Source of the DNA: Craspedostauros australis
Taxonomy: Eukaryota; Bacillariophyta; Bacillariophyceae; Mastogloiales; Achnanthaceae
Assembly (NCBI GenBank): GCA_026770025.1
Contig: JAMXDE010000014.1
Location: 1,550,001 to 1,614,000, forward strand
Direction: 5' to 3'
Length of the DNA: 64,000 bases
Part shown: in pieces, positions 17,439 through 64,000 of the stretch
How positions within the stretch are numbered: the first letter of the stretch is position 1
Layout: each line of letters opens with the position of its first letter
Notes under the pieces: generated by a model
Databases searched by the model: none
Seen by the model: only the letters and a program-made list of their open reading frames with translations
Told to the model about the DNA's origin: nothing
Made by a program: the position numbers and the translations under genes

Positions 17439-17969
17439 CTTTGACGTTCGAACTTGTTCCGGTTTCTGACGAGTTTGTTCCTGCTCGGGCGGGGTTGAAC
17501 TCTTGTGAGCACAAGTTTGTGTGCGCGTAATTGCAGACCAAGGCGTCTGTTGTTTGTTTTCGCGTTGTTGATGTGTTGTGTACTGTCGCGATGTGGAGTG
17601 AAGGGTATTCGTACCATACGTACGAGTCTTTCCTTGATGTCTTTTGATGCCCAGCGCCACGTTGCCTGAGGGGAGTTGTGCCGTCCTCTGTGCATTTGTG
17701 ATACACAAGAATGAGAGCATTGGCAGTTGCGCGCACTTTCATCAAAATTCCGCGAACGGGAGAAGGTACGTGGTGAGTTCATCGCAAACGCAAGAAATTC
17801 TGTTCGTTGCCAACCCAATCGTGGAACAACGGATTGGCGGACAGACTTCTTCATCCACGAACAACAACGCGTCACGCAGACAATGTGGTTTCCGTCTGTC
17901 GTGTGCTGCGTCATGTCGCGCCAAGACTGTGTCTGCGACTTTCCACGAAATCTGTTGGCGGAAACATAC

Positions 17970-18127
17970 GACCCGGGTCAGTGAGTCGACCAACCATTGG
18001 TAAAGTAGAGTGGCACTTTTTCTTCGATTAAAACCAAACTAAGCATACCGATCAACTCATTATAGTGTCCATAGCAACAGGAAAATTACCCAGAAACTTA
18101 AAGTCCATAGTTTAAGTTTTATGGACC
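17970..18127 (+). repeat. Left terminal inverted repeat of the DNA transposon
   Basis: 158 bp, complementary to 22378-22535 with five substitutions. It starts GACCCGGGTCAGTGAGTCGAC. Similarity stops abruptly after ...TTTTATGGACC. Confidence 0.93.
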
Positions 18128-18625
18128 AGCAAATATTTTGAATCGTTTGGGTCAAACGTAGCATTCCACAATGTAGTTTTGTCGAAGGTTCTTTGGTGTT
18201 CCGAGTTAATAACGATTGATGTCCATTCACGTTGGTGTCTCCAGCTTTTTCCTTTCTCCTCGTTCGTTTGGAACACGTTATACACCGTTAGCTGCTCCGG
18301 AATCGATTGACATTTTCCACTTGTGACATCACACACATCATCACATGCGCACGCACACATTGTTGCCACGCCCACACAAAAACCGTCACATTTTGGGCTT
18401 CACTCCAAAGGTGCCTCCGCCGATGAGATGCTCATTGTATCTGTTGTTCTGCGGTTGTAGTTTGAGTAGTGAGAGCACTAGTTACATTGGCGGTTGTTGT
18501 TCTCGCTGCTGCATCCAACACCTCTATCGGCATCACCTCTTCCACTCGCTTTCATTCAGTGTTCTCCAGTGCCATTCATCGAACAATCAATCAATCAATC
18601 AACCTACTCTGCTACCATCAACACC

Positions 18626-21600
18626 ATGTCCTCCACCGCCGCGAAAGCCTCCATCAAGGGTGAAAACCCATCTCCTCGTAAGAAGCCTCGTTCCTGTGTT
18701 GCCCCCCTCGATTCTCCTTTTGATTCAGATGGCAACTTGGCACCTACTCGTGAGCAGCTGTTGCCCGACAAGTTGTCTGCTGGATTGCAGAAGCCCACCG
18801 ACATCACTCACGCGATCGAGGTGAAGCCGATGCTTCCGGTGGACAGCAACCTTGTTCCAACTTTGGCGCATGTCGATGCCGCCAACTTGCGCGTCGACGT
18901 GCGCCTGTCCAGTGCGGCTGGTGTCATTTTTGATACACCAACGGTCACACTGCGTACGGTTGGACAAGGTGTCGATGCGATCACAGTGGTTGACGTCAAC
19001 ATCAACGTGCCGCATCCCGTCGCGTCTCCTGCCAAACCAACTACCCGTGCAAGCACTGCACGACACGCAAACGCTGTCGCTGGAGCCGCTTCCACCCGTG
19101 TTGATGTTGACAGCGACGACGACTACGTGGATGGCCGCGATCGCAGGAGGAAGCGAACAGGACGTAACAGACTCATGCAGAAAACGGCGAGAGGATGGCG
19201 TCGCGATGCGTTGGTCCGTGTCGCAGGTTTGGTTAAGTCTGGCCTTTCTCCAAAACTGTTCGACTGTATGCCGAAGACGGGATTCGCAATTGGAGGAAAA
19301 CACAACAAGCAAGTCTGGTGCAACATCAAACGACTCTGGGCACCAATTGCTTGTGCACTCTGGGGTGTGTTGCTCCCAAAAGAAGCGACACCAACTGGCC
19401 AGATGCATGAGGTGGTGCAATTTGTCCGAGCTAGGCAACCACTGCCACCACTGAGGCTTGCACCAAATCTGTACCGCATTTGTGTTGGAGGGAGCAAGCT
19501 TATGCACCTTTGCGCGAGAGCCGTTCTCGCGCAGTCTGCATCTCCACCAACATGCACAGATATTCTCACTGGATACGTCAATGGATTGCCGGAGGAACAA
19601 CGCGTGCGTGTACATACTAATCGATTAAGTGTCACTAAAAGCCAACATAACACATTGCATCGTTACCACGACATGTTGAGCGATGGGGAAACCATTCCCC
19701 CCAAAGTTCTCCAATACCGTGTGACTGCATGTGCTTTGTCTGGCGTGGTGTCCTTTCTCTGCACTACGACCACGTACAAGGCTGGCTTGTGCCACGCAGT
19801 GGAGTGGGAAGGAGTTGTATTCGAGAATGTTCCCGTCTTCGATCGTGGAGGAAAAAGTGTGATGGCGCTATTCGACATGTACAAGACTACCACTACCAAC
19901 CCAGTGGGCAAGCCAGCATTTAAGGAGATGACTAAGCTACTAACACGACGAGGCAAAGTGAACACAGGGCTGTCTTCCTTCGAGAGCCACTTCTTGCTGG
20001 CGATGCTCACTCTCAAACGCACGATCTCGCGCCTCGTCACACTTTTGAAGGCTAAGTATCCCGCAACAAATGATGCCGAGGACGAGAATGACGTGATTTC
20101 CCAACATCTGCGCACAGCCGAGTCTCTGTTGTACTCATTGGAACTTCTTGTTGTCTTCGTCAAATGGGAATTCACTGCCTCTCACATGCAGATGGAGTGT
20201 GACGACCCACTGCACTCAGCTCAATTCGCGCTCACGCCCAACGAGAAGAAGAAGACAACGACCAAACGATCCCAACCAACCAGAACACGTACAAACAAGC
20301 ACAAGCTCAGGAAGAAGAGCACTCGAACAAGCGACATTGCTTCTGCCACCAATGACACCCCAAGCATCACAACTGATATTCGTGACATCACTTGTGTGAC
20401 AGATGCCGCTGCCAATGACACCACCACTGACAACAATGAACAGCCTCATGCCCCCACGGACAAACATCACACTGGAGTATGCAACCGTTGTGCAGCAGCA
20501 ATGCGATTTGTGGACGACCGATATGTCCCTTTCGTCACGATGCTTATGGAGGATCACCTTGCAGAACACGTGACAGAATTAGAGTCCATGCTTAATGCTG
20601 CACCGGGGTTCAACAACGAAATACTGTGGTACATGGCACACAAAGTGCGCAGTAAGGTCCAATTCGGACAAATTGAGCAGTACCTCAAAAACATCAACAA
20701 CAGAGAGGATCGTGCACACGTGGTGCTGGACCACAAACAGAAAATTCTTCCAACCGGCCAAGGCGAGGCTCAACAAGAATACTGGGGCAAGAAGGGCATG
20801 TCTCTGTTGGGTGCGATGGTGATAACGTGTCGCAATGACACATTCACTTATCGCTTCATCGATATCATCGTCAAAGGAAGACCAACACAAGACACCCTAC
20901 AAGTTGGCGGGCTTATCGAAATTGTGCAACAACAGGTGAGAAAAATTCTTCCATCGGTCACCGAAATTGTCATCCAATCCGATAATGCGTCTTGTTTCGC
21001 GAGCCACGAGCACATCCCACTGATCACCTCAGTGCTCAACAAGAACCTTGGAACGCGAAATGTCCCGAAGATTTCTGCCTGGATCTACACCGAAGCCCAA
21101 ACCGGAAAAGGCCGCCTCGACACGCACTTTGCGTACATCACTGTTGTACTGCGAGCGTACGTGCTGGAGGACAATGACATCAAAACAGAACACCAACTTT
21201 TCGACGCATTGGAAGCTGGCAACATTGCGGGAACGACCACGGTTTTGGTGGATGCAGAATGCCTCGAGGGGCGTGTCCTGAGTTTCCCTGACATGCCGAA
21301 GAAGCGTTTCTGCGCGAAAGGGCAAAAGGTACGCCAAACGCACGAGATCAAGTTTGGAGACAACGAGGCGAATTTGGTGGCGGCGTCCGGTGTCACAGAC
21401 GACGTTCTTGTCCCGTGTACCGAATGGGAAGACTGGGAAATTAACCAGCTGGGCGTCCGCACCATTGCGGCGCACACGTCAGAAAAGGAACCGTTCACCG
21501 CGGAATCGCCGAAGAAGAAGAAGAAGACACGAAAGCGCGGATCTACCGCAGTGGAGAGCAAAGCGCTCGTCTTTCGCGACGCACTGATCATGGGGCAAGG

Positions 21601-22258
21601 AGAGCTACCGCACGACCACACCGCAGAATTGAAAGACCAGACCGCGGAAGCAGAAATCCCTCGACTCGCGGTGAAGGGCTGGGCAGTGAAAACAACGCGC
21701 AGCAACGCGGAGTTACCACGGTACGTACTCCAGAAACTGGATGAAATGAGCACGGCAGCCAAAGAGGACCCGAAAAATCGGCCAACAGAACACGAAGCGC
21801 ACCGCCGATTGATGGAGGTGGAGGGAACAGAAACTGACTGGTACATCCAGTTGCACGCCAGTCCAATGCGTGTGAAATCGTACTTGGCCGCAGCGTACAA
21901 CAACGCACAGCGCGCAGCAAAGAAAACAACCGCGGCACCAAGCACGACCGACAACAACGCAAAAATGGCATCAATTTCGTCACCGTTACCACCCTCACCA
22001 TCACCACCTACAACAGCAACAGCAACCGCCGCGTCTGTAGCGGAACCATCAGGTACGAAGCAAGCAGAGCAGCAGCATACCGAAGAAGAGGAAGAGATGG
22101 AGGAAGAGGACAGAGAGAACAGAATGTGGTGTGAGGCCAACACCATCAGGAGGCACGCGGAGAACGAAGAGATGGTCCCCGAAGAAGTGAGGGATGCGAT
22201 TCGCGCGAGGATGAGACGGAGACTGATGGCGAAAATGGAAAAACAAAATAAGGACTAA
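18626..22258 (+). CDS. DDE-like transposase of uncertain superfamily
   Basis: A 1210-aa protein encoded inside the TIR-flanked element, so almost surely its transposase. The first ATG of the frame is at 18626; the codons before it run only to a TTG. The N-terminus is low-complexity with a basic, probably nuclear-targeting patch (RDRRRKRTGRNR). A Lys/Thr-rich linker (20240-20330) and a Cys pair CNRCAAAMRF (20480-20510) precede the catalytic region. Candidate acidic triad, in frame numbering from 18494: D746 (VVLDHKQKI, codon 20729), D830 (IQSDNASCF, codon 20981) and E867 (YTEAQTGKG, codon 21092), followed by D876 in GRLDTHFAY. A late GWAVKTTR motif and a charged Glu-rich tail follow. I recall a similar SDNA...E..GK...D...GWA.K layout in uncharacterised animal proteins, but this needs a search. 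There are no frameshifts or internal stops, so it may be active. Confidence 0.8.
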   Translation: MSSTAAKASIKGENPSPRKKPRSCVAPLDSPFDSDGNLAPTREQLLPDKLSAGLQKPTDITHAIEVKPMLPVDSNLVPTLAHVDAANLRVDVRLSSAAGVIFDTPTVTLRTVGQGVDAITVVDVNINVPHPVASPAKPTTRASTARHANAVAGAASTRVDVDSDDDYVDGRDRRRKRTGRNRLMQKTARGWRRDALVRVAGLVKSGLSPKLFDCMPKTGFAIGGKHNKQVWCNIKRLWAPIACALWGVLLPKEATPTGQMHEVVQFVRARQPLPPLRLAPNLYRICVGGSKLMHLCARAVLAQSASPPTCTDILTGYVNGLPEEQRVRVHTNRLSVTKSQHNTLHRYHDMLSDGETIPPKVLQYRVTACALSGVVSFLCTTTTYKAGLCHAVEWEGVVFENVPVFDRGGKSVMALFDMYKTTTTNPVGKPAFKEMTKLLTRRGKVNTGLSSFESHFLLAMLTLKRTISRLVTLLKAKYPATNDAEDENDVISQHLRTAESLLYSLELLVVFVKWEFTASHMQMECDDPLHSAQFALTPNEKKKTTTKRSQPTRTRTNKHKLRKKSTRTSDIASATNDTPSITTDIRDITCVTDAAANDTTTDNNEQPHAPTDKHHTGVCNRCAAAMRFVDDRYVPFVTMLMEDHLAEHVTELESMLNAAPGFNNEILWYMAHKVRSKVQFGQIEQYLKNINNREDRAHVVLDHKQKILPTGQGEAQQEYWGKKGMSLLGAMVITCRNDTFTYRFIDIIVKGRPTQDTLQVGGLIEIVQQQVRKILPSVTEIVIQSDNASCFASHEHIPLITSVLNKNLGTRNVPKISAWIYTEAQTGKGRLDTHFAYITVVLRAYVLEDNDIKTEHQLFDALEAGNIAGTTTVLVDAECLEGRVLSFPDMPKKRFCAKGQKVRQTHEIKFGDNEANLVAASGVTDDVLVPCTEWEDWEINQLGVRTIAAHTSEKEPFTAESPKKKKKTRKRGSTAVESKALVFRDALIMGQGELPHDHTAELKDQTAEAEIPRLAVKGWAVKTTRSNAELPRYVLQKLDEMSTAAKEDPKNRPTEHEAHRRLMEVEGTETDWYIQLHASPMRVKSYLAAAYNNAQRAAKKTTAAPSTTDNNAKMASISSPLPPSPSPPTTATATAASVAEPSGTKQAEQQHTEEEEEMEEEDRENRMWCEANTIRRHAENEEMVPEEVRDAIRARMRRRLMAKMEKQNKD

Positions 22259-22377
22259 TTAATTCAAAATGTGAACAAATTCGCCAAAACGAAGAACACA
22301 AACACGTTATTTTGGATCGAACTTGTCGGATGTCTATCGCCCAGTTTAGGAGTAGTCCAAAAATGTGCACATTGACG

Positions 22378-22535
22378 GGTCCATAAAACTTAAACTATGG
22401 ACTTTAAGTTTCTGGGTAATTTTCCTGTTGCTATAGACACTATAATGAGTTGATTAGTATGCTTAGTTTGGTTGTAATCGAAGAAAAAGTGCCACTCTAC
22501 TTTACCAATGGTAGGTCGACTCACTGACCCGGGTC
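22378..22535 (-). repeat. Right terminal inverted repeat of the DNA transposon
   Basis: Mirror of the left repeat (17970-18127), ending in GACCCGGGTC next to the right ATAC target duplication (22536-22539). Confidence 0.93.
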
Positions 22536-22754
22536 ATACACATCGGCAGGATTGCAACCATCACAATGATGATGATGGACCGTGGCGCATGCATTTTCTG
22601 CTCTGCTCCGCGAATACTCACACCGCACTGATTGATTGTATGGTAACCATGCACCACTATTATGTATTATCATATGCATCGGGCATTCTACGTACTCTTC
22701 ATGGATGGGAGACGTCGGACAACGTCATCGCCGGATGCGATGTGAGCATCAGCA

Positions 22755-25658
22755 TCAAGCCAAATTCGCCATCATCCACTCCTCCTCGATCTCGTCAATC
22801 TCGTCAATCTCCTCGTTGAACTCCGCCTCCAGCTCATCCTCGGCCAAATCGCTGTCCCACGCCGACTGTCCTCTCAAACGGCGCGAGGGGCATTTGCTTG
22901 GACGGAAACGAAGCTCGGCGATGCATCCGGAACCGGTGTATGACACGCTGGTCTTGTAGATGTTCGAGTGATTGAGCCACAGGTCGGTGAGGCCGTTGTG
23001 GCCGCCCTTGTCCGCATACCTGGTGAGGGACTGGTCGGGGCTGCTGTGGCGCGGGTGGTAGAACTGCATCTTTGGGCGGCTCTCATCGGCGTCGACGTCC
23101 AGGAATCGACTCATCTCTATCTTCACGGCTCCGTGCATGGACGATCTGAAGAAGAAATAGATGCATCCTCCTGGCTTGCCAATGTCGTCAGGGCACGTCT
23201 TCTTGTCCTCCTGGATGACGAGGACCTTGCCGATGGGGGTAGCGGGGCAGTTGGCGAACTTGTTCACGCCTCCGTTGCGTTTCAATGGCGCACCATCGCG
23301 ACCGACACCAGGACCTGGATTTGGGCAGCCGTCGTTGGGGCTTCCGAGATCTGGGTCGCCGTCGTCGCCGCTTCTCCTTGGGTCACACATGGGGTTGTTG
23401 TACAATGCATACTTTGAGTCTGATGTTCTGTACCCAGTCGGTTTGGAGGTGTCGAAGACACGGGCGGCTCCGTAGCGCTGGTCGCTTCTCCAGTTGCGGC
23501 ACTGCAATGGGTAATTGGGATTGAAGCTGCAGTAGCAACCAAGCTCACCAGTTTTGCAATTGGATGGGGGTCTGGGTGTGTACGCCCTGGAAGACGAGCT
23601 GGCGGCGATGATCTTCACACCCTTCGTGTTCCACCATTCGTCGTAGATGAAGCCACCATCTGGAAGGTCGTTGAAGTCGAGGGTGATCAGCGGGCACACG
23701 CCGGGTGGGAGCGTGCAGTCTGGCTTGCACCGAGTGCCGGAGTAGTCATTGCGAGTTCCTTCGTCGCATTCCTCGCCGGGATCGACGATGCCATTACCGC
23801 ATGTGTTTGGAACGGGGATTTCGCAATTGTTGGTGCAGTTGTCGTTGTTGTTGTTGTTGCCGTCGTCGCATTCCTCTCCGTTCTGGACGATACCATCACC
23901 GCATTTGGGAAGCTTGCAGCCGTTGGTGCAGCCATCGTTGTTGACTGCGTTACCATCATCACACTCTTCGCCGGCCTGCATGAAACCGTCACCACACTTG
24001 GCGTTCTTGCAGTTGTTGGTGCAGGAATCAGTGTTGCTGTTGTTGCCATCGTCACATTCTTCTCCGTTCTGGACGATACCATCGCCGCAGGTTGGAAGCT
24101 TGCAGCCGTTGGTGCAGCCATCGTTGTTGACTGCGTTACCATCATCACACTCTTCGCCGGATTGCATGAAACCGTCACCGCACTTGGCGTTCTTACAGGT
24201 GTTGGTGCAGGAATCAGTGTTGCTGTTGTTGCCATCGTCACATTCTTCTCCGTTCTGGACAATTCCATCGCCGCAGGTTGGAAGCTTGCAGCCGTTGGTG
24301 CAGCCATCGTTGTTGACTGCGTTACCATCATCACACTCTTCGCCGGATTGCATGATACCGTCACCGCAGGTTGGCGTGGTGCATGCGTTGGTGCAGCCAT
24401 CGTTGTTGACTGCGTTACCATCATCACACTCTTCGCCGGCCTGCATGAAACCGTCACCGCACTTGGCGTTCTTGCAGTTGTTGGTACAAGAATCGGTGTT
24501 GCTGTTGTTGCCGTCGTCACATTCTTCTCCGTTCTGGACGATACCATCGCCGCAGGTTGGAAGCTTGCAGCCGTTGGTGCAGCCATCGTTGTTGACTGCG
24601 TTGCCGTCGTCGCATTCTTCGCCGGCCTGCATGATACCGTCACCGCACTTGGCGTTCTTGCAGGTGTTGGTGCAGCCATCGTTATTGACTGCGTTGCCGT
24701 CGTCGCATTCTTCTCCGTTCTGGACAATTCCATCGCCGCAGGTTGGAAGCTTGCAGCCGTTGGTGCAGCCATCGTTGTTGACTGCGTTCCCGTCGTCGCA
24801 TTCTTCGCCGGCCTGCATGAAACCGTCACCGCATTTTGGAAGTTTGCAGCCGTTGGTGCAGCCATCAGTGTTGCTGTTATTACCATCATCACACTCTTCG
24901 CCGGACTGCACGATGCCGTCACCGCAGGTTGGAAGCTTGCAGTTGTTGGTGCAGCCATCGTTGTCGACCTTGTTGCCATCATCGCACTCTTCGCCGGTTT
25001 GCATGATGCCATCACCGCACTTGGCGCTCGTGCACTGGTTGGTGCAGGAATCGTCGTTGATCTTGTTGCCATCATCGCACTCTTCACCTGGATCCACTGT
25101 GCCGTCACCGCAGCTGGAGAATGGGGTGGGATCTTCGCAGGTTGGGACGCACTCGAGCACGTAGGTGAACTTGAGGACTGCGTACTGGATAGAGAGGTCG
25201 GCATGGCAGCACTGCGGAACTTTGCCAGTTCCGATGGTCTTGTCGATGTCGGGATCACGCACGTAGAGGGTGACGACCGATTTTGGCTTGGTCTGGAAGC
25301 ACTGCGCAGTGAAGGTTTCGCCCACGTCCTGGTTGGCCGGGACGTTGGCGAACATCTCGCAGTTGACACCGCCGATGCTGTTGTTCTCGGAGTACTCGGT
25401 GTAGATCTCGGCGGTGGGGCGGCCGTCTTGTGGCCACACGTTGTAAACCTTGAAGGAGACGGAGCTGGTGTCCTGGCTCACGATCTCGATTGGTGCTCCC
25501 GAGTACTGGAAGTCGCTGGAACGGAGCAACTGATAGTCCAACGGGCATGGCTCCGAGTTGGATCCACCAGCGTCAGAGACGGTGTCGAACATGCCATGGA
25601 CGGCATTGCTGCCGATCTGGCTCAACACGAGCGATCCCAGGAGAGTCTTGACGTTCAT
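22755..25658 (-). CDS. Secreted cysteine-rich repeat protein (DUF4215-type), copy A
   Basis: 967 aa, starting at the ATG at 25658, which begins a clear signal peptide (MNVKTLLGSLVLSQIGSNAVHG). After an N-terminal region of about 190 residues come 15 tandem repeats of about 31 residues (93 bp) with the core CGDGIVQNGEECDDGN and paired Cys; the last is a variant, CGNGIVDPGEECDEG. This is the pattern of the DUF4215/Myxococcus cysteine-rich repeat family. A C-terminal domain of about 300 residues follows, with GDPDLGSPN and VLVIQEDKKTCPDDIG, a motif pair I associate with extracellular proteins. The protein ends in an acidic tail. A 5' UTR intron is likely: GTGAGT at 25997 and CCGCAG ending at 25698 (minus strand). 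It is probably a cell-surface or wall protein; its ligand and function are unknown. The near-identical copy B lies at 59817-62534. Confidence 0.88.
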   Translation of the reverse strand: MNVKTLLGSLVLSQIGSNAVHGMFDTVSDAGGSNSEPCPLDYQLLRSSDFQYSGAPIEIVSQDTSSVSFKVYNVWPQDGRPTAEIYTEYSENNSIGGVNCEMFANVPANQDVGETFTAQCFQTKPKSVVTLYVRDPDIDKTIGTGKVPQCCHADLSIQYAVLKFTYVLECVPTCEDPTPFSSCGDGTVDPGEECDDGNKINDDSCTNQCTSAKCGDGIMQTGEECDDGNKVDNDGCTNNCKLPTCGDGIVQSGEECDDGNNSNTDGCTNGCKLPKCGDGFMQAGEECDDGNAVNNDGCTNGCKLPTCGDGIVQNGEECDDGNAVNNDGCTNTCKNAKCGDGIMQAGEECDDGNAVNNDGCTNGCKLPTCGDGIVQNGEECDDGNNSNTDSCTNNCKNAKCGDGFMQAGEECDDGNAVNNDGCTNACTTPTCGDGIMQSGEECDDGNAVNNDGCTNGCKLPTCGDGIVQNGEECDDGNNSNTDSCTNTCKNAKCGDGFMQSGEECDDGNAVNNDGCTNGCKLPTCGDGIVQNGEECDDGNNSNTDSCTNNCKNAKCGDGFMQAGEECDDGNAVNNDGCTNGCKLPKCGDGIVQNGEECDDGNNNNNDNCTNNCEIPVPNTCGNGIVDPGEECDEGTRNDYSGTRCKPDCTLPPGVCPLITLDFNDLPDGGFIYDEWWNTKGVKIIAASSSSRAYTPRPPSNCKTGELGCYCSFNPNYPLQCRNWRSDQRYGAARVFDTSKPTGYRTSDSKYALYNNPMCDPRRSGDDGDPDLGSPNDGCPNPGPGVGRDGAPLKRNGGVNKFANCPATPIGKVLVIQEDKKTCPDDIGKPGGCIYFFFRSSMHGAVKIEMSRFLDVDADESRPKMQFYHPRHSSPDQSLTRYADKGGHNGLTDLWLNHSNIYKTSVSYTGSGCIAELRFRPSKCPSRRLRGQSAWDSDLAEDELEAEFNEEIDEIDEIEEEWMMANLA

Positions 25659-25997
25659 GGTCAGCGTTGTCTTCGTTGATTGTCTGATATGAACTCGCTG
25701 CGGATGTGACAGGATTTCCCAGAGTAGGGCATTGTGCCATGCCATGCCATACCGACGTTTGTGGTTGTTTGGGGAGCCAGCAGATAGGAGAAGCAAAGGG
25801 TTGAAGACGAAACGAGGTTAGAATTTGGGGATCTCGTGGAGCAATGGTACGAATATGCAACGCCATCGAGAGGAGGCGAGAGCGTGTAGCAGATCGCAAA
25901 GGAGTGAAATGGAATTGGGAAGAAGCGCGGGAGCCGTATTGGAGGATGATAAGAGGACCGAGATGAAGCAGGACGAATACGAGCAGAAGCTACTCAC

Positions 25998-27129
25998 GTT
26001 TGGTTGCTTGCTTCTTGCGTTTCTTTGTGTTTGATTTGCGCTTGCTTTGTGAGAGCAGTTGGATTTTATGAGATGGAAATGGATCGAGGGAGGGATTGAG
26101 GGAGGGATTGAGGCGTAGCTGAGTTGATAGAGCACTTGACAAGCATTACTCGTGCAGTAAGGTATTCTCAGGAGGCGGGAGCATGGTCCAAAGCCTTGGA
26201 AAGGAGTGAAGCACCGCGCCATATATACTATTCTACCATACAACTCGCTTCGACTCAGAAACTCAATATCTGCCTGCCTCCTCGTACCTACCTACACCAT
26301 ACCATCCTACGTGTCCTCCCACGGACTCGAGGCTTGCATATCATCCTCTATTCGTGATTTCATTCGCGATGGGGAGCCCCTACCCTGGACGAGGCACAGC
26401 TTCAATTCGAAGAGACCGAGAAGCGAAGGAGCTGATCCTGCTCTGGGATTGCAATGCGCTTGGGCTCTCTCGGCAAAACAGTTGATAAAAGTACGCATAA
26501 TTGTACCCCATCCACTCCTACATTCCTTGTCGCCATGGCGCTGTGCCATTCATTGACATCAAGAAGAGTTGTATCGGAGTCTCTTGTATTCCGCACGATG
26601 ACCGCAAGATCAGAAAGTCTTCATCTCCGCCTCCGCCATACTTTTGGCCTTCTGCGTTTGGACGCAGAACACTCGACCCGGAAGCGATTTGACGAGCCAC
26701 AAGACAGGTCTACTGGGATGCAATTGGAACCGCGGTCTTCGACTCTCTTGGGAGGCCCAAGCTCTCTGGTCATAGTTGCGCAAGGATGAGCTAGAATTGA
26801 TCAACTGGCAGAGCGTCTCGTGTTCATTCCCGATTGTATAGCACTGATATGCATCGAGATGCAAATGCACAGGGCAATTATCTATTCCGTTGGAAGCATC
26901 GATAGCACAAGATTGAAGTTCGGGTCTGAAGTGCCGACGTTCAACTGCTCGTGGCGAGCACAAATACGCAAGGATGCCATCGTCAATCTCGCTGGTATGG
27001 ATAGCAATGTCAGACAAGATGGTGGTACTATACTTATGGAGTGGTTGCGCTGTTGTTGTGGTAGTAGGTTGGCACTATCGATGACCGTTGGGTCACTGAT
27101 GTCGCGACCAGTACAATTGCGTACGAGGA
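25998..27129. other. Upstream flank of copy A, no supported gene
   Basis: This is the promoter side of the cysteine-rich gene and is part of the duplicated segment. A direct 12-base repeat (GGAGGGATTGAG) lies near 26092-26113. Small frames such as 26369-26485 and 26454-26789 are kept open in copy B, but the longest opposite-strand frame (26610-27017) has a stop in copy B. I therefore call no gene. Confidence 0.45.
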
Positions 27130-28798
27130 CAATCAAGCGCGAGCAGTTATCTCCACAGTCGCGTGGGATCGAATGAGGGCTGCATGATGCTCCCGCGATG
27201 CCTTTCGCCCTTGTGTCTGTGAATCTTTTCGCGCATGTCTCAAGTTGCTACCGTTGTCACTGCTGTCTCAACCGTTGTTACGCACAGGTTTTTGATGAGC
27301 TACCGTGCTGGTTGTCGTACTATGCAGCGCATTGATTTCATTACATGCGGGTACAACAATTCGCACATGGAGTTTTGATCGTGGTCGCGAACAGAAAGAG
27401 AGAGATTGACTGAACACCCACAAGAGGGGTCATCTTGTCGTTCTTTGTGATGAATCATGCTTCAACGATGCCCCGACCGGTCGTTGCCAAAAAGTGAGAA
27501 AGAAAAAGAAAGTCTGCCTTCACTTTTTAATTGTTTTCCAACCAAAAGGATGCTAAAATCGCCACGGGGATGAAGGAAAGCGAACCAGACCATCGCGGTT
27601 GTTTCGGTCGATCCGCTTTGTTCATGCTCCGCTCGTCGGGAGGAGCTTTTAGCTTTTGCAACGATGGAAGGAACCTGGGTTGGGGTTGCTGAGGGGAAAG
27701 GAAAGAGTAGGGGGCTGGGTTGTTTCATTGTTTATCCCTTCATGACCCAGAGATAATTACACTATTGTATCGTTTGTCTCGACACCGTGTACTTCTTGAA
27801 CGCGTTTGTCCTACCACGACCTACGTAAAAACGAAATCTGTACAATCATTTACTCGTGCTATTGTTGGAACAGTTGAAATTCAATCAGGGACAGACTATT
27901 ACCAAAACATGGCGTCCTCGGCCGATGTCTGAGATTCTCGCTTTTTTTGCGCGAAACCCTCCGACTTGATCGACTACGAAACCTTTCCTCCCCCTTTCTC
28001 TCTTCCCATTCACGAATCAGTGCTGACTCAATGCCATGACCAACCTGATTCCATTCTGCTCTGGGAACTATATGCTCCTCAAATCCTCTCTACTACAACA
28101 TACCTCGATTCCCTCCATGCTCATGACCACTACATTGTTGTCATGGCCATAGCACGCATATCCAACTTGCTTCAACTCAAGCAAGGAATCCGAGGGTGAA
28201 TTCCAACCTCAGCCATTGCCGCATCGTCATCTCAACCTCAACTGAATACTGAGCTGTCATGATCTACACTGCAATGTAACCACGTATGAAGAGAGCAAGG
28301 ACCAAGGATCAACATCCACCCTCAAGCCCTGAACAAAGTAAATCAGTGCAGGACTGTATTGAGCAGTGCAACATCGTTTCTTCATCCTACCAAGACAACT
28401 AAGAAACTCAAAATAACACAATCTGAGATTAGTACAAACTGCACTACTCTACTCATTGTTACTGTAACACATCTTCCGACAAAGTTCACACCTCTTGAAC
28501 TGCATTGCACAGTTAACCCGAAACCGGCAGTCTTCGAGGCCCTCTCCACCAAATCGTGTCACCAACAGAGCACGAATTCCAACTGGTAGCTGCGACCTGA
28601 TTCATATGCTCTCACCATTCCATCGAGCATCTTCCTCTGCCAACAGATTGCAAACGTCTCTCTGAGACCAAGCCAAAAGGCACAGCTTGCAAACTGAGCA
28701 TCTTCTGTAGGACTGAAGTCCCAACCGAATGCATCTGATCCAAGACCAGATTCCATCACTCGAAAATCGAGTTTCCCAAGAGGACAAAAGTCCCAACT
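27130..28798. other. Gene-free region at the edge of the transposon cluster
   Basis: Only short, unrelated frames are present on both strands. I see no RNA gene, transposon terminus or long repeat. The first gag-like relic begins at about 28799. Confidence 0.5.
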
Positions 28799-30663
28799 GA
28801 AGGTATGCGACCAAACGTCGGCCCTCAGTAGCCTCTGCCGAAGCAAGCTATGACCGCACTCACTGACCAAGTACGATCCCTTTCCAAGCCTGCATCGAAC
28901 TTCAGTGCACACCTTCCAAATGAAGTGAAGACGAGCAAGAGCAGAAGAAGGCGAACCGATCGATCCTCTCGAAGTCCAAAGACCCCTCGAGAAGTCCCCG
29001 CTATCCACCATGGTGGAAGAGACACCCCCTGCCATGCTGGAAGAGCTGCAAGCGCAGCTTGATGCGATCACATGCAAGAATGCCCGCCTCACACAGGCAG
29101 CACTGTTGGACAAAGCCGCTACAGAAGCAGCCACAGCCACAGCCACCCCAAGTCGTTCTGGCACCAGGTGCAGCCAATCCGCTGATGCCCACTCGATTCC
29201 AAATGAACGAGTCCTTCTTCGACAACAGCATCTTCAACATGGAAACTCCCATGCCCAAGAAGAACAAGAAGTCAGGAAGTGACAGTGACAACAAGGACAA
29301 TGACCTCTCCGGAAACCCTGTCGTTCCCATCATGGGAGGCCTCATCAAGCAAGGTCGCAACTGGGTATCCTGGACTGCAGGTACACCAAATGCAGAATGG
29401 ACCGGCCTCCAAGACAAGTCACAGACCCTGTGGATCAACTCTCAACAACAGAGACTCCTCCACAATGGTGCTGACTCTGCAAATCAATCCAAGTGATAGC
29501 AGGGATTCACTGACAGGTTCAAGAAAGGCAGAAACATGCAACAGTTCATCCAACTGGTGCACAACCACATGACCAAGACTGGGCTTCTCACCATGGTGTA
29601 CATCGCCAACGATACCTCAACATCCAAGATGGCCTGTGTCCTCGACGCCCCTGCCTCCTTCACTCTTGAAGATGCCACAAAGCACTACAGCAAGTGCAAC
29701 CCAAAGTGGGACCACTACAACCTCCAGAACAACTGGACAGCTGCAGCGTTCTTCCAAGACTGTTTCGATCCAAGGCTCGAAGACCAGCTCATGAATCGAA
29801 TCGAGCCAAAGTTCCACAATAACTTCATCAACCTCTTCATCTGTTGGCAAGTTCCGCTCACGGTGACCTACGATCGTGGAAGATGGTGTTGGTTGATAGT
29901 TGTCTGTTTGCTATTTCATGAGTTGGCTACTCCGATCCTCTCGGTGTACGCCCGTTCTCTTGCCTGATGCTCTCGGCGCTTCAATCTGTTTCGTAGATTG
30001 AGACTCCGACTATGAGTCGGTACGCGAGATGCTCTCTCGCTCCTCTCTGTATTCTCTCTCTCTCAACATCGTGTGCTCGTACTACACGATACTCCGTGTT
30101 CGATGCGTACTCCGCATTTGACACTCCGTTCATTCAGTACTGGCTCCTACTCCGTGAGTACTTACCATTTGAAGTTCACCTTCTGTATCCATGAGGCTGA
30201 TCCTCTTCTTTCATCGGATCTTCGCCTCCTGCTCTGACTTGGAGACAGATGTCGACGTGGTGACACAATGACATCCTGTTGACGTCAGTAGGCGTCCTTC
30301 TGCTCTCCAGATGTCACGTTCCATTGGTGATGCAGTAGTCTGTCAGATGATATCGTCATCTGAGGTTTAGTTGGGAAGTACCTCGAGATTCTCTTGGTAC
30401 CATTGATGGATGGACGGACGATCTTCTAATTCTCTCAGAAATCGTCGATTGCAAATTTCCTCCAGAAATCTTGCTCATTTTCGTGTGTTCCATTTCCGCT
30501 GTAATTCTGACGAATCACAGTATACTATCGACACGAATGTAGTTATACCGTCCAAGTGCGTATGAGAGAATAGCGGGTGAACGATGCACATATACTCGTA
30601 CATCTTGACATATACTCACATGTACATCTCGACATTCATCAAGTTCATGAACAGCATCACTGC
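28799..30663 (+). pseudogene. Gag-like gene relic, copy 1 (split by a reverse LTR)
   Basis: Bases 28799-29841 and 30635-30663 match a second copy further right (31432-32232, 40167-40755). Coding stretches include MVEETPPAMLEEL (from 29010), then in a different frame PMPKKNKKSGSDSDNKDN (about 29240), and FIQLVHNHMTKTGLL and WTAAAFFQDCFDPRLEDQ (29540-29780). These look like a retrotransposon Gag-type protein, though the element it came from is not identified. It is broken by a frame discontinuity near 29150 and by tandem stop codons at 29494-29499 where copy 2 has sense codons. A 793-bp reverse LTR interrupts it, and it is cut off by another LTR at 30664. Confidence 0.7.
29842..30634 (-). mobile_element. 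Solo LTR of the Copia family (family A), reverse orientation
   Basis: 793 bp, reverse complement of the LTRs of the two full Copia elements. It runs TGTTGGCAAG to ATCTCGACA, so TG...CA in sense orientation. It is flanked by the 6-bp duplication TTCATC (29836-29841 and 30635-30640). The unbroken target is visible in gag copy 2 at about 40438. It is most likely the product of LTR-LTR recombination after insertion. Confidence 0.93.
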
Positions 30664-33105: not shown

Positions 33106-36100
33106 ATGAGCGAGGAAGAGGAATTGAAAGACATCCCTCTGTCCAATCCGGCTATCAAGAGAGAAGAAGGTGCGAGTGAGACTCCATCACGAGAAGAGAA
33201 GGAAGCAGCCGCGGCTACTGTCCTATCAGGCGCATACGCAAGCGCGATCGACGAGACCGAAGAAGAACGGTCTGCAAGACTACATCGCGAGGAGAAGAGG
33301 ATTCTCAAGACGGTCAAGCAAGAGGAGACTGGTGTGACGAAGAGCATTCGCACAGCCAAACAGGGTGGGAAAAGTGAGACACCACCAGGAGGAGAATTTG
33401 TGAGCAAATCAGTCCTCGCGAAACAACAAGCGAAAATCGAAAAAGTGACAACACAGAAACAGACGGAAATCAAGGGCGCGAGCGCACCAACGACGAAACA
33501 ACGAACCAACATGGCGACATCAGCCAACGTGAACAAGCGACGCATCAAGGCGCCAATGTTCAGCGGTGAACAGGAAGACTACAGCGCATGGGAGTCCCAA
33601 GCAAAGGCATACGCTCGTGCACAGAAGACGAAGGACGTGATGTTGGGCAAGACCAAGGTGCCAACATTGAGCGAGATCGCGGCAGCCGCCGATGAAGATA
33701 AGGAAGCAATGGAGGAGACCTACGAACTGGGATGCGACTGTTTCAGCGATCTGATCCTCATGATGGATGCAGAGAAAGGAAAAGGGAAGCAGGCCATCCA
33801 ATACATCAACCAATGCATCTCCGACGACTACCCTGAAGGAGACGCACACGCAGCGTGGAACGTTCTCGCGGAGAAGTTCCGACCATCCGATGCGGTGACG
33901 AAGATCAAACTCAAGCGCCAATTCAACAACAAAAAGATGAAGAGAGACACGGACCCCAACATCTACATCACGCAACTCGAGAGTCTACGATCGCGTCTCC
34001 ACGATGTCAAGTATGAGATCTCGGACGAGGAAATGATCATGCAAATCCTCAGCACGGTGAGCAACGAATACAAAACTCACATCGTGAACTTCCAGCACCA
34101 ACTCACGTTCAATCCGGAACTGGTCACCATCAACACGATCAGAGGAGTACTCCGCACTGCATACGCCACACACAGAGGAGGCAAAGCATACGTCGACGAC
34201 TTCCAAGACAGTAACACGAAGAGCAACGACACCGGCTTCACAAGCACCGGTAACTTCAAGGGTACTTGTCACAACTGTGGCGTGTATGGTCACAGATCCG
34301 CCGATTGCCCAGAACGCAAGAAATCGAACAACAAGAAAAACAACAACAACAACAACAAGATGAACGGAAAGCGCAACAAGACAACCGGCTTCAAGGGCAA
34401 GTGCAACTACTGCGGCATCTTCGGACACCGCGAGGCGGAATGCCGAAAGAAGAAGTTCAACGAGAAGAAGAAGGCCAACGAGCAGGCCAACACAGCAACA
34501 CAAGGACACGACAAGAGCGGGCACGAGATGGTACTCTCAGCAAAGGACATGCCGCTCTGCATGTTGGTGTCCGACGACTACATCGAAGACTCCTTCTTCG
34601 ATAACTTCGAGTACGTCGGGAGTGACGACAAAGTGCAGAATGATGAGATCATCCCGGAATGGCTCAGCGAGGAGCCAATCATCCACGAGGTGGATCCAAG
34701 ACGCGAAGTGAGCTACGAATGCTGCTTCAACGCGCACGACCTGATCGGTTCATACGGCGACGAAGCTGAGATGGACGACGAGGCCAATGATAGCGACATC
34801 GAAGAGGCCATGAGCGATGACGACGACGACGCCGACGAGGACGGCGCAGATGAAGACGACGAGGCGAACCGCGACGAGTTGCCTCCTCCTCAAATTGGGA
34901 GATACGAGAGAACGGGAACCTTCATCAATCAAGGCGAAACGCGCCGCGCCGCAGCGCCGCCTCCTCCAGCAGCGGGGAACAACAGATCGGGCATCTTCGA
35001 TGAGGATGACAGCGATGAATCCGAGGACGGCAATCATCCAGACGACAGCTTCAATCCAAACGAGCGTGTCGTCTACCCAGGGAATATCGACTTCCCACCA
35101 ATCGAAGATCCCAACAGATCCAACTACCTCCATCGTCATGACACCGTCCCATATGCAACAGAGACAGCATTGGTGATCCAGAAGCAACTCATCTTCGATG
35201 CAGTGATGGAAGCGGGAGTGAGCCTGTTCCCAGGAATCGAACGAGGGGTACTCAGACCGATATGGGTCAACATGATGGGATCCATCCTATCCGAGAACTT
35301 CAGATCGATTGAAGAGATTCTCGCCAATTCGGTTGTGATCAATCGCATACTGGAAGCAGCCGAGACAGAGACGATCCCAGAAACGGATCTTCACTACATC
35401 CTAGGAGGATGTATGCGCGTACTCTTACGCGAGCGACCACGCGTCCACCCATATGATCCAGCCACAGGATCTCATCGGAACAGTACGGTTCCATCGGACT
35501 ACGCACAGCTACCTGACGATATGGATGACGGAGACCATCATCATCCATACAACGAAGATGGAGTCCACGAAGACGACGACGACGACAGCTTCGACGACGA
35601 AATAGCTGCGGCAGCTGTGGAGCAACTCCACGAGCTGAGCACCAAGTACAAGGACAAGGTCAACAAGGACACCTGGCTCGCCGACAGCGGAGCTTCGTGT
35701 CACATCGTCAACTCGGATGCCGCTCTCTTCAACGTGCGGCACATCAAGTCCTTCGTCCAAGTGGGAGACAGCACGAAACTGGACTCTCCCAAGATGGGAT
35801 CCATTCGCTTGAAAGTCAAGCAGCGAAACAACACTGGCCACATCATCCGGCTCGATGACGTGAAGTACACACCGAAAATGGCGGTGAACCTTTTCTCCAC
35901 GAACAAGGCTCTGTACAACGGTTACCAGCTTGGTAACAACGGCATTCTGATGGACATCATCAACGGATCCGGAATGAAGATCGTGTTCGATCGAGTCTTC
36001 CCCACATCCAACGGATTCATCACGGGAGTGCAGATGCATCCCATCATGCCAACAGACGACGACAAGGCTTGCACAGCCATCGTCAAGAATCCATCCAAGG

Positions 36101-59361: not shown

Positions 59362-59816
59362 GCGGCACTTTCATCAAAATTCCGCGAACGGGAGAAGGTA
59401 CGTGGTGAGTTCATCGCAAACGCAAGAAATTCTGTTCGTTGTCAACCCAATCGTGGAACAACGGATTGGCGGACAGACTTCTTTATCCACGAACAACAAC
59501 GCGTCACGCAGGAAATGTGGTTTCCGTCTGTCGTGTGCTGCGTCATGTCGCGCCAAGACCGTGTCTGTGACTTTCCGCGAAATCTGTTGGCGGAAACACA
59601 CACATCAGCAAGATTGCAACCATCACAATGATGATGATGGACCGTGGCGCATGTATTTTCTGCTCTGCTCCGCGAGTACTCACACCGCACTGATTGATTG
59701 TATGGTAACCATGCACCACTATTATGTTTTATCATATGCATCGAGCATTCTACGTACTCTTCATGGATGGGAGACGTCGGACAACGTCATCGCCGGATGC
59801 GATGTGAGCATCAGCA

Positions 59817-62534
59817 TCAAGCCAAATTCGCCATCATCCACTCCTCCTCGATCTCGTCAATCTCGTCAATCTCCTCGTTGAACTCCGCCTCCAGCTCATC
59901 CTCGGCCAAATCGCTGTCCCACGCCGACTGTCCTCTCAAACGGCGCGAGGGGCATTTGCTTGGACGGAAACGAAGCTCGGCGATGCATCCGGAACCGTTG
60001 TATGACACGCTGGTCTTGTAGATGTTCGAGTGACTGAGCCACAGGTCGGTGAGGCCGTTGTGGCCGCTCTTGTCCGCATACCTGGTGAGGGACTGGTTGG
60101 GGCTGCTGCGGTTCGGGTGGTAGAACTGCATCTTTGGGCGGTCCTCATTGTTGTCGATGTCCAGGAATCGACCCATCTCTATCTTCACGGCTCCGTGCAT
60201 GGACGATCTGAAGATGAAATAGATGCATCCTCCTGGCTTGCCAATATCGTCAGGGCACGTCTTCTTGTCCTCCTGGATGACGAGGACCTTGCCGATGGGG
60301 GTAGCGGGGCAGTTGGCGAACTGGTTCACGCCTCCGTTGAGGTTCAATGGCGCACCTTCGCGACCGACACCAGGACCTGGATTTGGGCAGCCTTCGTTGG
60401 GGCTTCCGAGATCTGGGTCACCGTGGTCGCCGCTTCTCCTTGGATCACACATGGGGTTGTTGTACAATGCATACTTTGAGTCTGATGTTCTGTACCCAGT
60501 CGGTTTGGAGGTGTCGAAGACACGGGCGGCTCCGGAGCTTTTGTCACTTCTCCAGTTGCTGCACTGCAATGGGTAATTGGGATTGAAGCTGCAGTAGCAA
60601 CCAAGCTCACCAGTTCTGCACCCAGATCTGGGTCTTGGCGTGTACGCCCTGGAAGACGAGCTGGCGGCGATGACCTTCACACCCTTCGTGTTCCACCATT
60701 CGTCGTAGATGAAGCCACCATCTGGAAGGTCGTTGAAGTCGAGGGTGATCAGCGGGCACACGCCGGGTGGGAGCGTGCAGTCTGGCTTGCATCGAGTGCC
60801 GGAGTAGTCATTGCGAGTTCCTTCGTCGCATTCCTCGCCGGGATCGACGATGCCATTACCGCATGTGTTTGGAACGGGGATTTCGCAATTGTTGGTGCAG
60901 TTGTCGTTGTTGTTGTTGTTGCCATCGTCACACTCTTCTCCGTTCTGGACGATACCATCACCGCATTTGGGAAGCTTGCAGCCGTTGGTGCAGCCATCAG
61001 TGTTGCTGTTGTTACCATCATCACACTCTTCGCCGGCCTGCATGAAACCGTCACCACACTTGGCGTTCTTGCAGTTGTTGGTGCAGGAATCAGTGTTGCT
61101 GTTGTTGCCGTCGTCGCATTCCTCTCCGTTCTGGACGATACCATCGCCGCAGGTTGGAAGCTTGCAGCCGTTGGTGCAGCCATCGTTGTTGACTGCGTTG
61201 CCATCATCACACTCTTCGCCGGCCTGCATGAAACCGTCACCGCACTTGGCGTTCTTGCAGGTGTTGGTGCAGGAATCGGTGTTGCTGTTGTTGCCGTCGT
61301 CACATTCTTCTCCGTTCTGGACGATACCATCGCCGCAGGTTGGAAGCTTGCAGCCGTTGGTACAGCCATCGTTATTGACTGCGTTGCCATCGTCGCATTC
61401 TTCGCCGGCCTGCATGATACCGTCACCGCACTTGGCGTTCTTGCAGTTGTTGGTGCAGGAATCGGTGTTGCTGTTGTTGCCATCGTCACATTCTTCTCCG
61501 TTCTGGACGATACCATCGCCGCAGGTTGGAAGCTTGCAGCCGTTGGTGCAGCCATCGTTGTTGACTGCGTTGCCGTCGTCGCATTCTTCGCCGGCCTGCA
61601 TGATACCGTCACCGCACTTGGCGTTCTTGCAGGTGTTGGTGCAGCCATCGTTATTGACTGCGTTGCCGTCGTCGCATTCTTCTCCGTTCTGGACAATTCC
61701 ATCGCCGCAGGTTGGAAGCTTGCAGCCGTTGGTGCAGCCATCGTTGTTGACTGCGTTCCCGTCGTCGCATTCTTCGCCGGCCTGCATGAAACCGTCACCG
61801 CATTTTGGAAGTTTGCAGCCGTTGGTGCAGCCATCGTTGTCGACCTTGTTGCCATCATCGCACTCTTCGCCGGATTGCATGATGCCATCACCGCACTTGG
61901 CGCTCGTGCACTGGTTGGTGCAGGAATCGTCGTTGATCTTGTTGCCATCATCGCACTCTTCACCTGGATCCACTGTGCCGTCACCGCAGCTGGAGAATGG
62001 GGTGGGATCTTCGCAGGTTGGGACGCACTCGAGCACGTAGGTGAACTTGAGGACTGCGTACTGGATAGAGAGGTCGGCATGGCAGCACTGCGGAACTTTG
62101 CCAGTTCCGATGGTCTTGTCGATGTCGGGATCACGCACGTAGAGGGTGACGACCGATTTTGGCTTGGTCTGGAAGCACTGCGCAGTGAAGGTTTCGCCCA
62201 CGTCCTGGTTGGCCGGGACGTTGGCGAACATCTCGCAGTTGACACCGCCGATGCTGTTGTTCTCGGAGTACTCGGTGTAGATCTCGGCGGTGGGGCGGCC
62301 GTCTTGTGGCCACACGTTGTAAACCTTGAAGGAGACGGAGCTGGTGTCCTGGCTCACGATCTCGATTGGTGCTCCCGAGTACTGGAAGTCGCTGGAACGG
62401 AGCAACTGATAGTCCAACGGGCATGGCTCCGAGTTGGATCCACCAGCGTCAGAGACGGTGTCGAACATGCCATGGACGGCATTGCTGCCGATCTGGCTCA
62501 ACACGAGCGATCCCAGGAGAGTCTTGACGTTCAT
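59817..62534 (-). CDS. Secreted cysteine-rich repeat protein (DUF4215-type), copy B
   Basis: 905 aa, paralogue of the gene at 22755-25658. The signal peptide, the N-terminal region of about 190 residues and the first repeat are identical in sequence. It has 13 cysteine-rich repeats instead of 15, which accounts exactly for the 62-residue difference. The C-terminal domain differs at many positions (for example DIDNNEDRPKM for DVDADESRPKM, and SGCRTGELG for SNCKTGELG). The reading frame is intact, and the likely 5' UTR intron with GTGAGT and CCGCAG is conserved at the matching positions. Likely function as for copy A: an extracellular or surface protein with unknown ligand. Confidence 0.88.
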   Translation of the reverse strand: MNVKTLLGSLVLSQIGSNAVHGMFDTVSDAGGSNSEPCPLDYQLLRSSDFQYSGAPIEIVSQDTSSVSFKVYNVWPQDGRPTAEIYTEYSENNSIGGVNCEMFANVPANQDVGETFTAQCFQTKPKSVVTLYVRDPDIDKTIGTGKVPQCCHADLSIQYAVLKFTYVLECVPTCEDPTPFSSCGDGTVDPGEECDDGNKINDDSCTNQCTSAKCGDGIMQSGEECDDGNKVDNDGCTNGCKLPKCGDGFMQAGEECDDGNAVNNDGCTNGCKLPTCGDGIVQNGEECDDGNAVNNDGCTNTCKNAKCGDGIMQAGEECDDGNAVNNDGCTNGCKLPTCGDGIVQNGEECDDGNNSNTDSCTNNCKNAKCGDGIMQAGEECDDGNAVNNDGCTNGCKLPTCGDGIVQNGEECDDGNNSNTDSCTNTCKNAKCGDGFMQAGEECDDGNAVNNDGCTNGCKLPTCGDGIVQNGEECDDGNNSNTDSCTNNCKNAKCGDGFMQAGEECDDGNNSNTDGCTNGCKLPKCGDGIVQNGEECDDGNNNNNDNCTNNCEIPVPNTCGNGIVDPGEECDEGTRNDYSGTRCKPDCTLPPGVCPLITLDFNDLPDGGFIYDEWWNTKGVKVIAASSSSRAYTPRPRSGCRTGELGCYCSFNPNYPLQCSNWRSDKSSGAARVFDTSKPTGYRTSDSKYALYNNPMCDPRRSGDHGDPDLGSPNEGCPNPGPGVGREGAPLNLNGGVNQFANCPATPIGKVLVIQEDKKTCPDDIGKPGGCIYFIFRSSMHGAVKIEMGRFLDIDNNEDRPKMQFYHPNRSSPNQSLTRYADKSGHNGLTDLWLSHSNIYKTSVSYNGSGCIAELRFRPSKCPSRRLRGQSAWDSDLAEDELEAEFNEEIDEIDEIEEEWMMANLA

Positions 62535-64000
62535 GGTCAGCGTTGTCTTCGTTGATTGTCTGATATGAACTCGCTGCGGATGTGACAGGATTTCCCAGAG
62601 TAGGGCATTGTGCCATGCCATGCCATACCGACGTTTGTGGTTGTTTGGGGAGCCAGCAGATAGGAGAAGCAAAGGGTTGAAGACGAAACGAGGTTAGAAT
62701 TTGGGGATCTCGTGGAGCAATGGTACGAATATGCAACGCCATCGAGAGGAGGCGAGAGCGTGTAGCAGATCGCAAAGGAGTGAAATGGAATTGGGAAGAA
62801 GCGCGGGAGCCGTATTGGAGGATGATAAGAGGACCGAGATGAAGCAGGACGAATACGAGCAGAAGCTACTCACGTTTGGTTGCTTGCTTCTTGCGTTTCT
62901 TTGTGTTTGATTTGCGCTTGCTTTGTGAGAGCAGTTGGATTTTATGAGATGGAAATGGATCGAGGGAGGGATTGAGGGAGGGATTGAGGCGTAGCTGAGT
63001 TGATAGAGCACTTGACAAGCATTACTCGTGCAGTAAGGTATTCTCAGGAGGCGGGAGCATGGTCCAAAGCCTTGGAAAGGAGTGAAGCACCGTGCCATAT
63101 ATACTACCATACAACTCGCTTCGACTCAGAAACTCAATATCTGCCTACCTCCTCGTACCTACCTACACCATACCATCCTACGTGTCCTCCCAGGGACTCG
63201 AGGCTTGCATATCACCCTCCATTCGTGATTTCATTCGCGATGGGAAGCCCCGGCCCTGAAAGAGACATGGCTTCAATCCGAAGAGACCGAGAAGCGAAGG
63301 AGCTGATCCTGCTCTGGGATAGCAATGCGCTTGGGCTCTCTCGGCAAAACAGTTGATAAAAGTATGCATCATTGTACCCCTCCACTCCCACGTTCCTTGT
63401 CGCCATGGCGCTGCGCCATTCATTGACATCAAGAAGAGTTGTATCGGAGTCTATTGTATTCCGCACGATGACCGCAAGATCAGACAGTCTTCATCTCCGC
63501 CTCCGCCATACTTTTGGTCTTCTGCGTTTGGATGCAGAGCACTCGACCCGGAAGCGATTTGACGAGCCACAAGACAGGTCTATTGGGATGCAATTGGAAC
63601 CGCAGTCTTCGACTCTCTTGGGAGGCCCAAGCTCTCTGGTCATAGTTGCGCAAGGATGAGCTAGAATTGATCAACTGGCAGAGTGCCTCGTGTGCATTCC
63701 CGATTGTATAGCACGGATATGCATCGAGATGCAAATGCACAGGGCAATTCTATATTCCGTTGGAAGCGTTGGCAACACAAGATTGAAATTCATGTCTGAA
63801 GAGCCAACATTCAACTCCTCGTGGCGGGCACAAATACGCAAGGATGCCATCGTCAATCCCGCTGGTGTGGATAGCAATGTCAGACAAGATGGTGGTACTA
63901 TACTTATGGAGTGGTTGCGCTGTTGTTGTGGTAGCAGTTTCGCACCAATGATGACTGTTGGATCACTGATGTCGCGACCAGTACCATTGCGTACGAGGAC
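62535..64000. other. Upstream flank of copy B, no supported gene
   Basis: Promoter, 5' UTR and further upstream sequence matching 25659-27129. Between about 63240 and 63280 the two copies differ more than elsewhere. No RNA gene or conserved protein frame is convincing. Confidence 0.45.

Follow-up and report, generated by a model that had tools for sequence, protein, structure and literature searches.

What has interrupted a duplicated host segment in the genome of the diatom Craspedostauros australis, and did it arrive before or after the duplication? The window considered here is a 64,000-nucleotide stretch of contig JAMXDE010000014.1 (assembly GCA_026770025.1, positions 1,550,001 to 1,614,000, forward strand). 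The interruption, at 17970..22535 on the forward strand, had been described in an initial annotation as a complete DNA transposon that carries its own empty-site control. Our analysis indicates that it is very probably an autonomous cut-and-paste DNA transposon, whose single gene would encode a transposase with a DDE/D-type (RNase H-like) core. The element is 4566 bp long, its ends being set by the empty copy and by homologous copies; the annotated ends, lengths, terminal inverted repeats (TIRs) and target-site duplication (TSD) were all reproduced. The 158-bp left TIR (17970..18127, forward strand) and right TIR (22378..22535, reverse strand) sit at the exact ends of the element, a feature of class II (TIR) DNA transposons, and are 97% identical with 5 differing positions. 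The TSD, ATAC, is found at 17966..17969 and 22536..22539 on the forward strand.

The host segment is present in the window as an occupied and an unoccupied copy, both on the forward strand. The left part of the occupied copy (17733..17969) matches 59365-59601 without gaps over 237 bp at 96.6% identity, and left-side homology is limited to this length. The right part (22540..27130) matches 59602-64000, with 1138 of 1185 aligned positions identical in the first stretch. The unoccupied copy (59365..64000) reaches the window end; its left edge, judged by eye, adjoins sequence resembling the end of a retrotransposon long terminal repeat at about 59361. Homology of the two segments reaches both junctions exactly, with 3.4-4% divergence near them, confirming that they are related at the junction, as the reading of an empty site requires. 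When the occupied flanks are joined with a single TSD and compared with the second copy, the alignment is gapless at the junction. A natural unoccupied counterpart therefore does exist at 59598..59601, as had been claimed; its target site is ACAC and not ATAC, one substitution away from the occupied site. When 1001 bp taken from the unoccupied copy were searched against the genome (74.8 Mb, 90 contigs), two copies were returned, both in the window, together with two weaker partial matches of 71-75%.

The same genome was searched with the TIR, which gave 71 candidate places. The best 40 were scored and fetched, and 4 further ends found in the fetched stretches brought those read to 44, one of which belongs to a sister family (below). 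In 40 of the 44 ends the adjoining 4-mer has TA at its centre (NTAN). Among the 15 copies of family A, to which the window element belongs, with both ends read, 14 show identical 4-mers at the two ends, and all 14 are NTAN. A TSD of constant length, 4 bp, is another class II feature and holds for all but one of the 15 paired family-A copies and for both sister copies read at both ends. A 22-bp tip pattern covering both families matched 215 places genome-wide, 210 of them with TA at the expected place, and the reversed control pattern matched none; TA makes up 2.7% of dinucleotides in the remainder of the window. From these counts, neither the length of the TSD nor the position of the ends varies, and the target is almost strictly NTAN. 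The tabulation of flanking 4-mers proposed in the initial annotation therefore upholds its delimitation, other copies ending at the same place.

The element contains a single intact open reading frame (ORF; 18626..22258, forward strand) that would encode a putative transposase of 1210 residues and is conserved in copies. In alignments of 11 and 9 sequences the second half of the protein is conserved, including Asp702, Asp786, Glu823 and Asp832. Asp702 (VVLDHKQK, 20729..20731, forward strand) is the candidate first catalytic acid; it is invariant in A1 and A2 and lies at a strand end in two low-confidence models. The candidate second acid, Asp786 (QSDN, 20981..20983, forward strand), is conserved in 9 of the 11 sequences aligned; copies L012 and L015 have Asn there, and the frames of both have an earlier stop. 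The segment Glu823 to Asp832 (TEAQTGKGRLD, 21092..21121, forward strand) holds the candidate third acid, both acidic residues being invariant in A1 and A2. A single-sequence AlphaFold model, of very low confidence, has an RNase H-like strand-helix order and puts both Asp702 and Asp786 at the end of a strand. The conserved motifs would fit a DDE/D RNase H-like transposase. We also note a stop codon directly before RGKVNTG in L012, L015 and L017; L017 is nearest to L014 and not to L012 or L015, and the stop is possibly a recurrent change.

A second family of 6.0-6.7 kb elements shares 53-57% protein identity with family A and has the same kind of tip. The DNA probe for this sister family gave 242 candidates, 40 of which received a score. 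One sister element (C10, 66315-72991) is nested in a family-A copy; it has the TSD ATAT and TIRs that are 77% alike over 173 aligned positions. The family-A rows at the insertion point read ATAA, GTAA or TTAA and none reads ATAT, so the nested insertion would have duplicated 4 bp cleanly provided that the host copy had undergone one substitution beforehand. Another sister copy, L044, is 6008 bp long with the TSD CTAG and TIRs 87% alike over 162 positions. Its open frame of 1173 residues, the ATG of which matches the start of the window protein, has 53% identity to that protein; the 100 bp to the left of L044 matched nothing elsewhere in the genome. The two families agree in how the 22-bp outer tip is built and in having an inner box that resembles TTTAARTTTTATGGACC. 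In the window copy the outer tip box is GACCCGGGTCAGTGAGTCGACC (17970..17991, forward strand), from which the sister-family box differs at three positions. The inner box, TTTAAGTTTTATGGACC (18111..18127, forward strand), is located by the TIR alignment and resembles the sister-family box. The outer tip and inner box are likely binding sites, the inner box of the window copy being a candidate site for the transposase.

Substitution patterns show that the ORF has evolved under purifying selection. The ratio of non-synonymous to synonymous rates (dN/dS) between the window copy and 9 other copies of both families is 0.07-0.17 over residues 620-1100. Among 16 aligned family-A copies (2 partial), the coding changes private to the window copy comprise 35 synonymous and 27 non-synonymous substitutions and no stops. 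Their non-synonymous to synonymous ratio, 0.77, compares with 2.5 under simulated random change (p = 4e-6), and the damaged copies L013, L016 and L038 give 2.1-2.8. Two copies break the pattern: L015, with its stop and Asn, has a ratio of 0.83 on 11 changes, and L009, with an open frame, 1.6 on 13 changes; small counts are thus not to be relied on. In the sample no other copy shares the branch of the window copy, whose nearest relative is 8.3% distant; part of the selection therefore predates arrival at the present site. The data fit an intact copy that was probably mobile recently.

What we infer from these comparisons is which residues are catalytic, how the protein folds, where it binds, that the element moves by cut-and-paste and that the window copy entered after the duplication. 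In each TIR the transposase would recognise two sites, the 22-bp outer tip and the inner box. It would excise the element and join it to a target cut 4 bp apart on the two strands around a central TA; repair would leave the NTAN duplication. Several observations weigh against this account. No convincing match to a transposase was found in Pfam, NCBIfam or PDB searches: Pfam gave weak matches below cut-off only, and the PDB profile search gave 3 weak matches, all within the low-complexity tail. The two AlphaFold models, each of the window protein alone, have mean pLDDT (predicted local distance difference test) values of 35.4 and 35.9, and the strand that precedes Asp786 is missing from the second. 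Because confidence is this low, about 35, and the strand is not repeated, our assignment to the DDE/D class draws on the motifs. The absence of stops from the private changes, against about 2.1 expected by chance, is weak evidence alone. Of the 15 paired copies, C16:217990-222534 alone lacks a matching TSD; its left end, where the tip is altered, is not NTAN, and neither are three further ends (C10:280926, CAAT; C48:393051, TGAT; C14:1442212, tip altered). Copy L016, considered as a further empty-site control, has its left flank in a high-copy repeat (40 of 105 candidates scored); its right flank matched none of six fetched relatives, so that it is not a clean control. Finally, no footprint or excision was seen, and cut-and-paste was assumed over copy-and-paste.

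A copy-and-paste DDE element, transposing through a circular intermediate while the donor stays in place, is an alternative to consider. Numerous copies with clean TSDs and the lack of any observed footprint are compatible with either route. Cut-and-paste elements typically combine long TIRs with a single transposase and a short TSD, and we regard copy-and-paste as unlikely, tandem and circular forms not having been sought. The tip itself invites another suggestion. The initial annotation had singled out the palindrome GACCCGGGTC, which is present at both tips of the window copy, as unusual, and such a sequence could be a functional hallmark, for example by forming a hairpin. This idea is largely refuted and we give it almost no credence: the palindrome occurs at only 6 of the 44 ends read and at both ends in none of the 14 other copies read at both ends, and is not a family trait. 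Rather, 29 of the 44 ends start GACCCAG, GACCCAT or GAGCCAT, and GACCCGGGTC is a variant of the variable outer stretch that precedes the conserved AGYGAGTSGACC.

As to the order of events, it had been argued that the element inserted after the duplication or was excised precisely from the second copy. Both routes fit the data; what does not stand is that the empty copy alone shows that insertion came second, and a third route passes through an empty allele. The simplest account, which we favour and which is not proved, is that the element entered one host copy after the duplication; in the window copy, an ORF that is still intact and a low load of non-synonymous changes argue for such late insertion. 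Had the element instead predated the duplication and later left the second copy, seamless excision would leave 59598-59601 looking identical. That history is quite improbable, as it requires an extra, scarless event, and the private changes of the window copy, with no stop and a low non-synonymous load, are unlike those of the old neutral copy that the 3.4-4% host divergence would lead one to expect. There is a small but appreciable chance that the insertion was polymorphic at the time of duplication and that the segment was copied from the empty allele, a history that looks the same as late insertion in one assembly; it has no positive evidence in its favour, and the divergence near the junctions would make the polymorphic period old. 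TIR divergence was rejected as a clock for the insertion. Left/right TIR differences such as AGTGAGTCGACC versus AGCGAGTGGACC are common to several copies; these shared differences predate the insertion of those copies and thus cannot date it. The TIR counts of L009 (112) and L013 (111) are register artefacts and were set aside.

To which superfamily might the element belong? Sola elements are described, in the available part of PMC10741241, as having a 4-bp TSD, a DDD-type transposase, sizes mostly of 2-9 kb and TIRs of 11-1124 bp. Compared by these descriptions only, the window element shares the TSD length and falls within range for size and TIR length; its candidate acids, to be set beside the DDD triad, are Asp702, Asp786 and, as third, either Glu823 or Asp832. 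The Sola2 elements of two amoebae, in the portion available of PMC3627910, have AT-rich 4-bp TSDs (AWWT; ATAT, AAAT, ATTT) that do not amount to an NTAN rule, and TIRs of 12-21 bp, short against the 158 bp here. By general features, Sola is the nearest named superfamily. Kolobok, according to the part of PMC9587614 at hand, has a 4-bp TSD (TTAA) and 5′-RR...YY-3′ ends and is reported in a diatom, all points of likeness. It was rejected on its TSD, the target here being NTAN with TTAA at only 1 of 44 ends, and on the absence, by eye, of its C/DxxH motif from the stretch Asp786 to Glu823, which separates the second acid from the last. Tc1/mariner elements also have TA at the target centre, and were set aside since their TSD is the 2-bp TA whereas here the outer bases are duplicated too, in 14 of 15 paired copies. 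Ginger elements possess a retroviral-type integrase core (PMC2836005, part available). No integrase family appeared among Pfam matches with E up to 10 for 9 members, a search that a very diverged integrase could escape; lacking such a match, Ginger seems an unlikely home. In the literature listed, to the extent of the text provided, no text joins the whole words NTAN and TSD and this family is not described. It is conceivable, if rather unlikely, that both families represent an undescribed DNA-transposon superfamily. Its marks would be a tip of GASCC type, long TIRs with two boxes each, a near-strict 4-bp NTAN target, and a transposase that has roughly 1170-1210 residues and no known domain. 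Scans of viral_contigs and genome_contigs with a few short peptide patterns each found no relatives elsewhere. Animal proteins presumably carry similar motifs, which we take as a lead only.

Other features of the window and of the copies were also recorded. The duplicated host segment carries a minus-strand gene (22755-25745 and 59817-62621) with cysteine-rich repeats of 31 residues (93 nt); its two ORFs encode 996 and 934 residues, a difference of 62 residues that equals two repeat units. The family-A ends L028 and L039 (C48:444890 and C5:4964), each close to the end of a contig, have flanks identical over the 26 bases shown; there, in contrast to the window, element and flank were probably duplicated together. 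Two very similar retrotransposon polyproteins, copia-type by eye, lie in the window at 33106-39351 (2081 residues) and 41628-47795 (2055 residues), and related repeat arms occur in inverted orientation around 29842-30634. Copia-type retrotransposons, again typed by eye, lie within or adjoin the family-A copies L027 and L025 (C30, C78).

The host genome has 88 matches to the silicon-transporter (SIT) family PF03842 (for example C9:2024068-2025684 and C2:1027174-1028778), 28 of which span nearly the entire model without a stop. Judged by this family, the host is a eukaryote that silicifies, and a diatom or chrysophyte is plausible. The main SIT type is present in 1-6 copies in 37 Thalassiosirales diatoms, as given in the part of PMC10700740 available, and against that figure the set here looks unusually large. 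In this silicifying, alga-like host, then, we have a transposon that is exactly delimited and was probably active in the recent past; its gene is intact, and the window supplies its natural empty site. As its transposase has no convincing match in curated libraries, the family would help the annotation of similar genes, and comparison of the two families points to candidate binding boxes and catalytic residues.

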